Source: Cyclobacteriaceae bacterium
GTDB taxonomy: Bacteria > Bacteroidota > Bacteroidia > Cytophagales > Cyclobacteriaceae
DNA length: 64,000 nucleotides
Assembly (NCBI GenBank): GCA_016786495.1
Contig: JAEUUJ010000077.1
Coordinates: 79,029-143,028, forward strand
Direction: 5' to 3'
Shown: positions 12,160-61,239 of the stretch, piece by piece
Layout: each line of letters starts with the position of its first letter
Position numbering within the stretch: the first letter of the stretch is position 1
Program-made: the position numbers and the translations under genes
The notes under the pieces: model-generated
The model's database searches: none
The model's input: only the letters and a program-made list of their open reading frames with translations
Told to the model about the DNA's origin: nothing

Positions 12160-12310
12160 TTCACACACTCAGAATGACAAAGGGATGTTTCGCTGCGCTC
12201 AGCATGACGTGCAGGTAAAAATGCCGGACGGGAGATGCTTCGCTGCGCTTAGCATGACGTTCAGGTAAAATACAGGACGGGGAATTCTTCGCTGCGCTCT
12301 AAATGACAAC
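12160..12310. repeat. Tandem imperfect repeats with core TTCGCTGCGCTcAGcATGAC
   Basis: Full copies start at 12189, 12239 and 12288 (periods 50 and 49 bp), and a shorter degenerate copy starts at 12160. Each carries TTCGCTGCGCT followed by an A-G-C/A-ATGAC segment; the first two also share CAGGTAAAA and GGACGGG. A related core (TTCGCTCCGTTCAGAA) occurs at 44178-44193. The sequence lies between two genes and overlaps neither. Confidence 0.8.
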
Positions 12311-48804: not shown

Positions 48805-48805
48805 G

Positions 48806-48861
48806 TTCAAGGTTTAAAGTTCCAGGTTTAAGGTTCACGGTTCCTGGCTTAAGGTTCAAGG
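48806..48861. repeat. Heptanucleotide tandem repeat, consensus GGTTCAA
   Basis: Between the GH1 gene and glpK about ten imperfect heptamers follow one another: GTTCAA, GGTTTAA, AGTTCCA, GGTTTAA, GGTTCAC, GGTTCCT, GGCTTAA, GGTTCAA, GGTTCGAA (one extra base), GGTTCAA. A smaller set is at 28322-28352. The unit is seven bases, like the STRR repeats of some cyanobacteria. Confidence 0.85.
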
Positions 48862-48870
48862 TTCGAAGGT

Positions 48871-50349
48871 TCAATCGATCCATTTCATCGTGCGCTGAAC
48901 GGCCTTCTTCCAGCCGCTATAGAGTTTCTCCCGGACAATTGATTCCATGCCAGGCGAAAATTTCTTGTCGATAACCCGGTTCTTTACTATATCGTTCTTC
49001 TTCCAAAGTCCTGCCTGGATACCGGCCAGGTAAGCTGCGCCCATCGCGGTAGATTCAATAACCTTTGGCCGCTCGACTTCGGCACCGAGAATGTCGGCCT
49101 GAAATTGCATCAGCATGTTATTCGCACACGCTCCGCCGTCAACCTTTAAACTGGCCAACGTTACTCCCGCATCTTCCTGCATGGCGTTCAGAATATCTTT
49201 TGTTTGAAATGCGAGTGACTCCAACGTGGCCTTAATGATGTGTTCTTTACCGGTATCACGGGTAAGGCCGAAGATCGCTCCGCGGGCGTACATATCCCAG
49301 TACGGTGCCCCTAATCCCGCGAATGCGGGAACCACGTAAACGTCATTCGATCCAAGGGCCTTGCTGGCAAAATACTCAGAGTCGGTCGATTCATCGATCA
49401 TATGCAAACTGTCGCGCAGCCATTGAACCGCAGCGCCCGCAATGAAAACACTTCCCTCCAGTGCATACTCAACGTTATTATCGAGCGACCATGCGATGGT
49501 GGTGATCAATCCGTTCTTCGACAATTGAAGTTTCGAGCCGGTGTTCATCAGCATGAAGCAGCCTGTTCCATACGTGTTTTTTGCCATCCCGGGCTCAAAG
49601 CACGCCTGACCAAACAATGCGGCCTGCTGATCACCAGCAACTCCGTTGATCGGCATTTTCAGGCTATTTACTTCAGCATCTCCAAAATGACATGCTGACG
49701 GCTTGACTTCCGGAAGCATACTTTTGGGAACGCCAAGTTCTTTCAACAGTCGCTCATCCCATGTTAACGTGCGGATATTAAAGAGCATCGTACGCGAAGC
49801 GTTTGTTACGTCAGTGGCGTGAACGTTCCCACCGGTAAGATTCCAGATCAACCAACTGTCGATGGTTCCGAATGCCAGTTCACCCTTCTCCGCTTTTGCA
49901 CGGGCACCTTCAACATGATCGAGAATCCACTTAATCTTCGTTCCGGAAAAGTACGAGTCAATCACGAGCCCTGTATTCTCCCGGACATAGTCTGTGAGAC
50001 CCCGCTTCTTCAAGTCTTCACAGATATCAGCCGTCCGTTTGTCCTGCCACACGATGGCGTTGTAGACCGGTCGGCCAGACTTACGTTCCCATACCACCGT
50101 TGTTTCACGTTGATTGGTAATTCCCAACGCTACGATATCCTTCTGCGTAAGTGTATTCGATTCGATCAAGTCGCTGAGTACCCCCAACTGTGTTTTCAGA
50201 ATTTCATTAGCATCGTGTTCAACCCAGCCGGGCTTCGGGAATATTTGTGTGAACTCTTTTTGTTCAATTCCTTTAATCTCAGCTTTATCATTTACCAGAA
50301 CCGCGCGTGAACTGGTTGTTCCCTGATCGAGTGCGATGATATATTTCAT
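48871..50349 (-). CDS. glpK: Glycerol kinase
   Basis: The 492-residue protein is full length for GlpK and shows [12 protein letters not shown] (phosphate 1), [76 protein letters not shown] (phosphate 2) and [20 protein letters not shown]. It phosphorylates glycerol to glycerol-3-phosphate. It lies 15 bp after glpD in the same direction, so the two form an operon. Confidence 0.97.
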
Positions 50350-59042: not shown

Positions 59043-60035
59043 TCAGAAAGACAATTCGCGGATGAACTTTGCTTTAGCATCCCAGATTTTGATATGCCCT
59101 TCGTGGCTTGAGGTAACGATGAACTTCCCATCGGCACTCCAATCCACTCCCCACAGTTTGTCTTCCGAACTTCCTTCGGCTATCAGTTTACCGTCCTGAT
59201 CCCAAATGCGGAGTTTATCACTTGCGGACGCAAGCCGCTTACCGTTACGCGACCAACTGATGTTCCGGTATTCGGCCGTTCCGAAGCGCAGTTCCTGAAT
59301 AAGAGACCCGTCTGACAAGCGATATTGCAACGCGGGTGAATAACCTTGTTCGCTGTCGCCATAGTCGCCCAGCACAAAGTAGCCTCCGTTGGTATGCCAC
59401 TTAACACAAAGCAAGAGTACGTTCTGTTTGCGATGTTTGAATTCGTTTAACAGTACGCCGTCTGCGTCATATACTCTGACTGCCTCGCTCAACACAATAA
59501 ACTCGTCTTTAGCCGGATGCCAGTCGATGGCTACATTACTGATGGTGTTTGATTTGGTGATGGTGCGGATCAGTTTTCCCTGAGGCGTACGGATGGTTAT
59601 CTCGCCTTCATAATCCGCGACGGCCAGCAACCCGCCTGTGTAATTCCATGCGATTGCTCTTGATCCATAACCCTTGTCGCCTTCCAGTTTGTATTCGGTT
59701 TGTTTGTCGAGGTCGATTATTTTCGACCCGCTGCCCACTGCCGCAACGGCCAGAATGTTGGCAAACGGATGCCAGCTCATGCGTTGAATTTCGGTGTCAG
59801 TATCAATCACCTTAACAAGCGCGAACGACTTACCATCATAGAGCCTGATTTTCTTATCTACTCCCCCAACGGCAATGTATTTACCATCGGTGCTCCAGTT
59901 GGCCGACCACAGTATGTTGCTGTTACCGGTATCCTGAGCTGAGAGGCTGCCGCTAATCAGAAAAAAGGCTGCTACTATCCAGTGCGTGAAAACGATACGC
60001 TTCGTTGACACGGTGGTATGAGAATTTTCAGTCAT
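59043..60035 (-). CDS. WD40-repeat protein with signal peptide
   Basis: The 330-residue protein has an N-terminal hydrophobic stretch (IVFTHWIVAAFFLISGSLSAQ) after a 13-residue polar lead, consistent with export. Six to seven WD40 blades follow: SANWSTDGKYIAVGGVDKKIRLYD, MSWHPFANILAVAAVGS, IAWNYTGGLLAVADYEGEITI, ISWSRNGKRLASASDKLRIWD and VDWSADGKFIVTSSHEGHIKIWD. It probably forms a beta-propeller that binds a partner in the periplasm. Being first in an operon with a TetR regulator and a membrane protein is unusual. Confidence 0.85.
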   Translation of the reverse strand: MTENSHTTVSTKRIVFTHWIVAAFFLISGSLSAQDTGNSNILWSANWSTDGKYIAVGGVDKKIRLYDGKSFALVKVIDTDTEIQRMSWHPFANILAVAAVGSGSKIIDLDKQTEYKLEGDKGYGSRAIAWNYTGGLLAVADYEGEITIRTPQGKLIRTITKSNTISNVAIDWHPAKDEFIVLSEAVRVYDADGVLLNEFKHRKQNVLLLCVKWHTNGGYFVLGDYGDSEQGYSPALQYRLSDGSLIQELRFGTAEYRNISWSRNGKRLASASDKLRIWDQDGKLIAEGSSEDKLWGVDWSADGKFIVTSSHEGHIKIWDAKAKFIRELSF

Positions 60036-60140
60036 GGACTTGGCTTTATACGCTCAAAGATGAAAGTTTTTTCAACAAGACTACCGGGCGACCGCCCGTG
60101 TTTTAGCCGGTATGCCCGGCTGGCCGGACTTGGAAATCGC

Positions 60141-60644
60141 TTTATGCGCAACCACCCTGCGGGATTTCTGCCTGACAACGCGCTAATTCTCTGCGACAAG
60201 GCGCCAATTCTCCGTTACCACGCGGGAATACTCAGTAAACCTGCGAGAATTCTCAGTCACTACGCGGGAATACTCAGTCACCCTGCGAGAACACTCAGTC
60301 ACCCTGCAAGAATACTCAGTCACCACGCGAGAACACTCAGTCACCCTGCGGGAATACTCAGTCAACCTGCGGGAATTCTCAGTCAACCTGCGAGAATACT
60401 CACTAATCATGCGGGAATACTCAGTCACCACGCGAGAACACTCAGTCACCCTGCGGGAATTCTCAGTCACCACGCAAGAATTCTCAGTCACCACGCGAGA
60501 ACACTCAGTCACCCTGCGAGAATACTCAGTCACCACGCGAGAATACTCAGTCACCCTGCGAGAATTCTCAGTAACCATGCGAGAATTCCCGAAAACCATG
60601 CTCCAATTCTCCCCGGAGGTGCTGGAACTCTGCCCAAAGTTGCC
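60141..60644. repeat. 21-bp minisatellite, 24 units without indels
   Basis: Units of exactly 21 bp run from 60141 to 60644. The consensus is AGAATACTCAG followed by TCACC, then CTGCG or ACGCG. Sixteen to seventeen inner units (60225-60581) are close copies; the three to four at each edge are degenerate but stay in register. Variation falls mainly at unit positions 1 (A/G), 5-6 (TA, TT or CA), 13-15 and 17-18 (CT, AC or AT). Plus frame 60018-60716, another plus frame, and minus frame 60183-60599 are all open, each giving heptapeptide repeats. The array lies between the WD40 gene and the gene at 60718. Confidence 0.92.
60183..60599 (-). CDS. Doubtful heptapeptide-repeat ORF within the 21-bp array
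   Basis: An ATG at 60599 opens 138 codons that repeat the heptapeptide V-T-E-Y/N/C-S-R-R/V about nineteen times, ending just at the array edge. GGAG lies a few bases before the ATG. Because other frames of the same array are also open, and no frame shows mainly silent change, this may not be translated. The overlapping plus frame (60018-60716) repeats I-L-S-H-P/H-A-R/G and is equally doubtful; it begins inside the WD40 gene. Confidence 0.2.
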   Translation of the reverse strand: MVFGNSRMVTENSRRVTEYSRVVTEYSRRVTECSRVVTENSCVVTENSRRVTECSRVVTEYSRMISEYSRRLTENSRRLTEYSRRVTECSRVVTEYSCRVTECSRRVTEYSRVVTENSRRFTEYSRVVTENWRLVAEN

Positions 60645-60717
60645 CTAAGGTCTTATGGAGAAGGCCGCTATTATCCAATTCCCGGGACTGTTCCTATACC
60701 CGTTCGGGTATCATGAC

Positions 60718-61239
60718 TTAATCACTAAATATTCTCTTTAGTTTCTCCGGGTATTTCATCCAAACAAAAAACAGGATCATGCTTAGCCCTAACACAAGCA
60801 GGAATCCCAACATTGGTCTTTCCTTGTCTCTAACCTCAATAAACTCCAGTAACATATATTTCCCGTCTCTCTCAATCTGGTAGACTTTTGGAGAGCGTTC
60901 ACTAAGCGCACTGGTTTTTACCCAAACGATGAGAGATGTGGATCGATTAAGGCCTTTGAGAATTTTATCATGATCGCCCAAGTTTGATGGCACCCGAAAC
61001 TCCTTTTCTGACTCCCGGAGGAAGAACACCAACTCCCACTCCTTATAGCGGTGGCCCTTCCTATCGATTTTAGTGTTTGCCAGTATGTCTCCTGAATAAA
61101 GGGTACCGTGTATCGCTGTCAACGATGATTTAAAGACCAACACTTGCGGAAGCTGAGCGGCAACATACCCGATCACGCCTATCCCAACTATTAACAAACC
61201 GTAGAGCTTCAGCTCAATCGTTCCTTCGTATTTCCTCAT
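60718..61239 (-). CDS. Unknown membrane protein (DUF3592-like layout)
   Basis: The 173-residue protein has transmembrane segments at about 12-30 (LYGLLIVGIGVIGYVAAQL) and 142-162 (PMLGFLLVLGLSMILFFVWM). A beta-rich extracytoplasmic domain lies between (KEWELVFFLRESEKEFRVPSN, STSLIVWVKTSALSE). This two-helix, beta-loop layout resembles DUF3592 proteins, but identity is not certain. It is followed by the 21-bp array and preceded by the gene at 61298 in the same direction. Confidence 0.7.
   Translation of the reverse strand: MRKYEGTIELKLYGLLIVGIGVIGYVAAQLPQVLVFKSSLTAIHGTLYSGDILANTKIDRKGHRYKEWELVFFLRESEKEFRVPSNLGDHDKILKGLNRSTSLIVWVKTSALSERSPKVYQIERDGKYMLLEFIEVRDKERPMLGFLLVLGLSMILFFVWMKYPEKLKRIFSD

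Follow-up and report, generated by a model that had tools for sequence, protein, structure and literature searches.

A 21-bp tandem array in a Cyclobacteriaceae genome as a gene-less member of a lineage-specific array family

The array and its locus

The window, a stretch of 64,000 nucleotides from contig JAEUUJ010000077.1 of a Cyclobacteriaceae bacterium (genome G000 below), carries an array of 21-bp tandem units between a gene for a WD40-repeat protein and a gene for a 173-aa product, the latter without a match at E ≤ 0.01 in Pfam or NCBIfam. The locus comprises the following features, in which G008 and G011 denote two genomes of the same genus.

59043..60035, minus strand: WD40-repeat protein gene, 330 aa; its orthologue adjoins an array in G011 and lies about 1.2 kb from one in G008
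60018..60716, plus strand: longest open reading frame spanning the array, third frame, with an ATG start and 232 aa; judged not coding
60036..60160, no strand: left leader, from the WD40 gene to the array; 94% identity to the orthologous leader of G011
60141..60644, no strand: 21-bp tandem array of 24 units; clear units, by eye, are GAGAATWCTCAGTMACCMYGC
60183..60599, minus strand: open reading frame of 138 aa that spans the array; judged not coding from its near-neutral variant pattern
60222..60586, no strand: array core according to Tandem Repeats Finder
60602..60644, no strand: right-edge units of another type (beginning TCCAATTCTCCCCGGAGGTGC); the G011 orthologue and some other arrays of the family have a comparable edge
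60718..61239, minus strand: gene for the 173-aa product, oriented with its 3' end towards the right end of the array

The 24 units in 21-bp register that had been described from the letters alone were borne out both by Tandem Repeats Finder, which gave the core a period of 21, 17.4 copies, 82% matches and 0% indels (a second row, 60511-60601, overlaps it), and by a register print, in which all 24 windows keep strict register and the first few and last two are degenerate. Units from 60161 to 60601 hold when set against the consensi of the family described below. Self-identity of the array is 0.79 at lag 21, and 0.23 and 0.22 at lags 7 and 14, respectively. The accompanying claim that the array has no indels stood for the array body; in the G011 orthologue, a 20-bp step is likely at the right edge. 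The frame details of the original prediction were correct: in the Glu-Tyr-Ser-Val-Thr-Leu-Arg frame a TAA lies at 60184 and the first ATG at 60409, and the minus-strand frame with an ATG is that of 60183-60599. The longest frame over the array, the 232-aa frame of the plus strand, was missing from it. Elsewhere in the window, a heptamer repeat (GTTCAAG) with 21-bp higher order occupies 48805-48874, and a tandem repeat with a period of 49-50 bp and about 2.4 copies occupies 12185-12307.

Comparison with G011 showed differences at 14 of the 207 bases of 60018-60224, a stretch bounded by the WD40 gene's 5' end and the first units of the array, with no sign of codon constraint in the plus-strand frame. 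Within the leader part of the 232-aa frame, its first 69 codons, the 14 nucleotide differences change 7 of 69 amino acids (dN 0.060, dS 0.107, dN/dS 0.56), as against a dN of 0.043, a dS of 0.528 and a dN/dS of 0.08 for the WD40 gene; hence it is as DNA, more than as protein, that the leader is conserved.

A dispersed family of 21-bp arrays in related genomes

A search of 147 genomes with the array DNA matched four, namely G000, G011, G008 and, weakly, G138 (31-bp matches). A three-unit sequence model, with which 150 of the approximately 290-660 candidates per genome were scored, identified arrays in 3 of the 17 genomes of the genus; in the other 14, the searches used returned no such array, a lone match in G013 resembling chance. 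The original prediction had held that absence of the array from close relatives would speak against it, and both relatives with a close WD40 orthologue were found to carry the array. Unit number, the variation of which it had proposed to check, differs from that of the window array in the orthologous arrays of both G011 and G008.

Patterns built from the units gave a wider view of their distribution. An exact two-unit pattern matched four stretches in two Cyclobacteriaceae MAGs (MAG-351 and SSF30) of a named genome collection, which may omit records of the window's own genome, and was absent from the viral contigs searched. When the pattern was reduced to the two-unit framework with at most one mismatch, 59 of 390 genomes of an order sample matched; G000 aside, there were at most four matches per genome, many of which look coding by eye, and a reversed control also matched many genomes. 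Several of the framework matches in G362 and G320 resemble heptamer repeats. Among 60 CGCGAG-CGCGAG pairs with gaps of 2-32 bases in three genomes, 28 fell at exactly 21 bp, as compared with 27 pairs in total for the reversed control. A three-unit pattern with up to three mismatches matched 20, 31 and 27 times in G000, G008 and G011, and once in the other 14 genomes together. Its reversed control matched 0, 43 and 17 times in the same three genomes and twice elsewhere, exceeding the 31 true matches in G008. Since the units of the L249 and L254 arrays (TTGGAGCG and TTAGAGCG) fit the reversed pattern, we ascribe these control matches to what would be further 21-bp arrays.

Sixteen arrays of G000, G008 and G011 were arranged in register, the census covering 0.36-0.45 Mb of each of the three genomes and less of others (G000_C6, a single chance unit, was left out). 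Their consensus units start with GAG in nearly all cases and end with GC in all, and the middle is freer. The window array fits this dispersed GAG(T/A)...GC family of three Cyclobacteriaceae genomes, in which the 21-bp register and the framework recur at several loci, and its consensus agrees at 18 of 21 positions with that of the gene-adjacent array G008_C14. The proposed search for the unit elsewhere in its own genome was successful in part: at E ≤ 0.001 the 504-bp stretch matched only itself, and weaker relatives are present.

Four of the array loci are orthologous between two or three genomes. The unit type is homogenised locus by locus, each array having a type of its own, and the fact that unit types differ at the orthologous arrays G008_C14b and G011_C4b indicates that units were replaced and the register kept. 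Higher-order periods of 42, 63, 84 and 105 occur among the arrays. At L242:5001-5260 and L073:7029-7263, a 105-bp higher-order repeat (5 x 21) with AATTACG heptamers adjoins a 21-bp array.

A gene for a 247-aa protein beside the arrays

Five of the 16 arrays follow, on the downstream side, paralogues of a single gene whose product is about 247 aa long (hereafter the 247-aa gene; an example copy is L015:6633-7379). G008 has four copies and G011 five, and all nine are followed by a 21-bp array, some with very different units. The gene is sporadic in the phylum and multicopy: a single-protein search found it in 8 of 194 genomes of the order and a profile search in 9 of 395 genomes of the phylum, with one genome common to the two. 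In total, 33 copies or fragments from 18 genomes were considered (L267 and L271, duplicates of L263 and L258, were not counted), and the flanks retrieved for 24 of them contain an array of 60 bp or more whose period is a multiple of 21. Among control windows, a 21-multiple repeat was present in 8 of 507, and at least two of these eight are gene-adjacent arrays themselves. Fisher's exact test gave p of about 1e-27 for copies that, as paralogues, are not independent; counted by genome, the association holds in 15 of 18. Loci of WD40-like genes in the same genus had a 21-bp repeat in 0 of 18 cases. The nine remaining copies of the 247-aa gene comprise one each with a period of 44, 8, 16 and 121 bp and five without a repeat of at least 60 bp, three of which are on contig ends. 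The 44-bp period has a 22-bp sub-period, again two helical turns. Array units of different genera look unrelated by eye. This pairing of gene and array in the relatives is the surprising part of the analysis.

At the window locus, neither the 247-aa gene nor a recognisable remnant of it was seen, and the array is thus an orphan. No copy was found in G000 at all. Two contigs of that assembly, however, end at or near such arrays: C79 (L289, start) ends inside an array orthologous to a gene-adjacent one, and C41 (L288, start) has about 110 bp between its end and the start of a gene for which the distance to such an array is 156 bp in G008. The absence of the 247-aa gene from G000 may therefore be an assembly gap; more generally, arrays of this kind may break assemblies, and draft genomes may lack copies of the gene. 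The array family is real and lineage-specific, and the window array is one of its members without the gene.

The 247-aa protein resembles little that is known. One member searched against Pfam and NCBIfam had no match at E ≤ 0.01, PHROGs returned weak matches only (for 2 and 1 of 17 members, best E 0.006), and the best match of the protein profile to PDB sequences, at E 0.35, was not significant. The AlphaFold model is all-helical (mean pLDDT 85.6, pTM 0.75), and Foldseek found no match for it at E ≤ 0.001 among PDB structures and viral models. The protein is basic, with a pI of 9.3-10.4 in all 17 aligned members, and its two halves resemble each other by eye. A phage or plasmid home for the gene was rejected, as it had no match in the phage collection, the plasmid collection or the viral contigs. 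None of the literature matches listed was recognised as an account of 21-bp arrays next to a gene of this kind.

Readings of the array and comparison with known systems

The array bodies contain 335 distinct substitutions and not a single indel other than of 21 bp in 209 units, and six flank alignments gave 19 indels per 131 substitutions, a comparison somewhat biased because bodies were chosen by register, so that indel-split arrays would be undercounted. From the flank set, the pair C14R-C14bR was dropped for want of an alignment and C3L-C7aL for overlapping another pair. Tandem Repeats Finder reported 4% indels for G008_C7a, the register print of which is unbroken, and 8% for one L256 row. 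The original prediction had left a DNA-level role and a repeat protein side by side; the former is favoured, since the genera differ in sequence but share a period of 21 (once 22), and the bodies lack indels. The window array is probably a DNA-level element or a register-locked minisatellite.

By analogy with known repeat platforms, we tentatively read the window array as an orphan of a dispersed family of two-turn arrays, each an iteron-like, putative DNA-binding platform in which spacing is conserved; this reading is plausible, if somewhat short of probable. On such an array each unit would present a protein site, all of them on one face of the helix, as in iterons and plasmid centromere repeats, and from this it would follow that spacing is selected and unit sequence is largely free. 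The binder would most likely be the basic 247-aa protein or a relative, and the complex might serve local regulation, the organisation of the locus or the upkeep of a selfish gene-array unit. The platform reading fits because the period is constant at two turns, the sequence is free, indels are missing and a basic protein is encoded next door. The orthologous arrays near the WD40 gene in G011 and G008, the pairing with the 247-aa gene and the negative coding and RNA-structure tests also speak for it. Counted against it are the window locus, which lacks the 247-aa gene; the nine of 33 gene copies that have no 21-multiple array; the side of the array relative to the 247-aa gene, which varies between lineages; homogenisation between units, which can alone remove indel-bearing units; and the 247-aa protein itself, in which no known DNA-binding domain was recognised (Pfam and NCBIfam for one member, and the PDB profile search) and which had no fold match at E ≤ 0.001.

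The main rival is a neutral minisatellite locked to its register, its link to the gene being historical hitch-hiking. Slippage and unequal recombination, through which units would expand, contract and homogenise, would act only in register, and indels would be weeded out mechanically. We regard this as a serious possibility, though one that falls below an even chance. The differing unit numbers of the orthologues, the separate unit type of each locus and the higher-order periods all suit it. So does a preference for multiples of 7, which accounts for 32 of 45 tandem-repeat clusters in the sampled parts of the three genomes; heptamers are over-represented in other bacteria too, where passages in two reports tentatively put this to polymerase slippage (PMC4679880, PMC4692102). 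This preference and the separate 7-bp repeats near several copies of the 247-aa gene leave room for a contribution from mutational bias, a point that also weighs against the platform reading. The neutral reading explains homogenisation, but it does not explain why dissimilar units of 21 bp stand beside homologues of one gene across genera. Moreover, the gene-adjacent arrays tested have at most a weak 7- or 14-bp signal: identity at lags 7 and 14 was 0.14-0.38 in ten gene-adjacent repeats, the seven with a 21-bp period had a lag-21 identity of 0.44-0.77, and one repeat had a period of 22 bp. The low identity at these lags together with the 22-bp period favours two turns over a 7-bp lattice. A heptamer origin of the 21-bp unit was rejected, since a lag-7 signal was lacking both in the window array and in the pooled 16 consensi, for which 38% of shuffles reached the signal.

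A non-autonomous mobile repeat, comparable to a minisatellite-bearing MITE and moved by an element elsewhere, would account for the shared polarity of the dispersed arrays and their partly similar right edges, as well as for the approximately 140 bp beyond the array that G000_C21 and G000_C37 have in common. We consider it improbable: no inverted repeats with arms of at least 12 bp bracket the window array, the one locus searched in this way, and it was on this ground that a MITE was rejected; in addition, four loci keep their arrays in orthologous places across two or three genomes.

An RNA-level element in the 3' part of the right-hand gene, whether a terminator, an attenuator or an element for stability, is very unlikely. 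It draws on the observation that in 15 of the 16 arrays (roughly ten independent positions) a mechanically called open reading frame has its 3' end towards the right end of the array, and on a weak terminator-like stem of the minus strand at 60618-60601. Against this, folding of the window array was no better than that of shuffles on either strand (z -0.79 and 0.11), Rfam had no match for it at E ≤ 0.1, and terminator-like sites numbered 2 where 0.9 were expected; the negative folds and Rfam search led us to reject it.

The coding question was addressed with 335 distinct variants from 16 arrays (209 units). Observed synonymous variants, with expected values in brackets, were 78 (78.9), 83 (82.9), 108 (100.9), 77 (85.2), 77 (85.4) and 94 (86.5) in frames +0, +1, +2, -0, -1 and -2; the corresponding stop-creating variants were 16 (15.4), 6 (3.9), 21 (23.4), 18 (13.6), 32 (21.8) and 6 (10.8). 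The strongest coding lean is thus in one minus frame (synonymous 94 against 86.5, stops 6 against 10.8), and none of the six frames has a clear excess of synonymous change or a clear deficit of stop-creating change among these variants. The proposed count of synonymous against nonsynonymous change therefore came out near-neutral in all six frames. Pooled units contain some stops in every frame; two frames have few (4 and 6 over the 16 arrays), and for these the expected stop-creating count is likewise low. Sixteen further gene-adjacent arrays had no consistent synonymous excess, and the 44/22-bp period beside one copy of the 247-aa gene cannot hold a frame, which argues against a repeat protein. 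The window array is apparently non-coding. Several frames are open across it, that of 232 aa also in a relative (202 aa), yet an unrecognised heptapeptide-repeat protein, rejected on the variant tests and the leader comparison, can be given almost no credence.

Returning to the platform reading, we would extend it, more speculatively and with greater doubt, to a previously undescribed chromosomal gene-array system of Bacteroidota: a basic helical protein together with its own 21-22-bp array, in which only spacing is conserved, would spread or duplicate as a unit and shed orphans such as the window array, and the protein would build an ordered nucleoprotein platform. Most conserved DNA elements are recognised by their sequence; here it is a length of two turns that returns next to homologues of one gene in many genera, with differing letters. 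Should the spacing be held by selection, the family would serve as a natural test of helical-phase recognition and would point to an unknown protein that organises DNA; should mutation alone be responsible, the family would show how a minisatellite locks to a fixed register.

Among known systems, BrickBuilt of Porphyromonas gingivalis, described as a minisatellite-bearing MITE with a 23-nt unit and small inverted-repeat ends (PMC4596501), is similar in being a dispersed minisatellite without spacers in a member of Bacteroidota; it differs in unit length from the 21 bp seen here, for which no inverted ends were found. Heptamer repeats are represented by TAACTGA in Beggiatoaceae, Cyanobacteria and some Bacteroidetes (PMC4679880) and by GGGNATC in Xanthomonas and Nostoc (PMC4692102). 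They too are intergenic, 21 is three times 7, and these genomes contain true heptamer arrays as well; in contrast, neither lag 7 nor lag 14 gives a signal in the window array, and its relatives accompany a gene.

The plasmid centromeres parC/ParR and parH/ParG, as outlined in PMC5016525, combine a platform of repeats with a neighbouring gene for a small DNA-binding protein. The gene-adjacent arrays described here likewise stand beside the gene of a small protein, the binding of which is putative, but the 247-aa protein has no recognised ribbon-helix-helix and no match in the plasmid collection. No ParM, ParA or TubZ motor gene was recognised by eye in the table of open reading frames of the 16 loci.

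Iterons lie near the gene of the protein that binds them. Plasmid iterons measure 17, 19 and 22 bp, and separation by a half-turn abolishes cooperative Rep binding, according to PMC4980987. No Rep-type initiator was present among the open reading frames beside the window array, and no Rep fold was recognised in the 247-aa protein. The arrays differ from iterons in being chromosomal and multicopy, in usually having more units, in their free unit sequence and in that some are gene-less. They resemble iterons accompanied by a Rep gene in being direct repeats of about two helical turns, of 21 bp in the window array, of a multiple of 21 beside 24 of the 33 gene copies and, in one case, of 22 bp.
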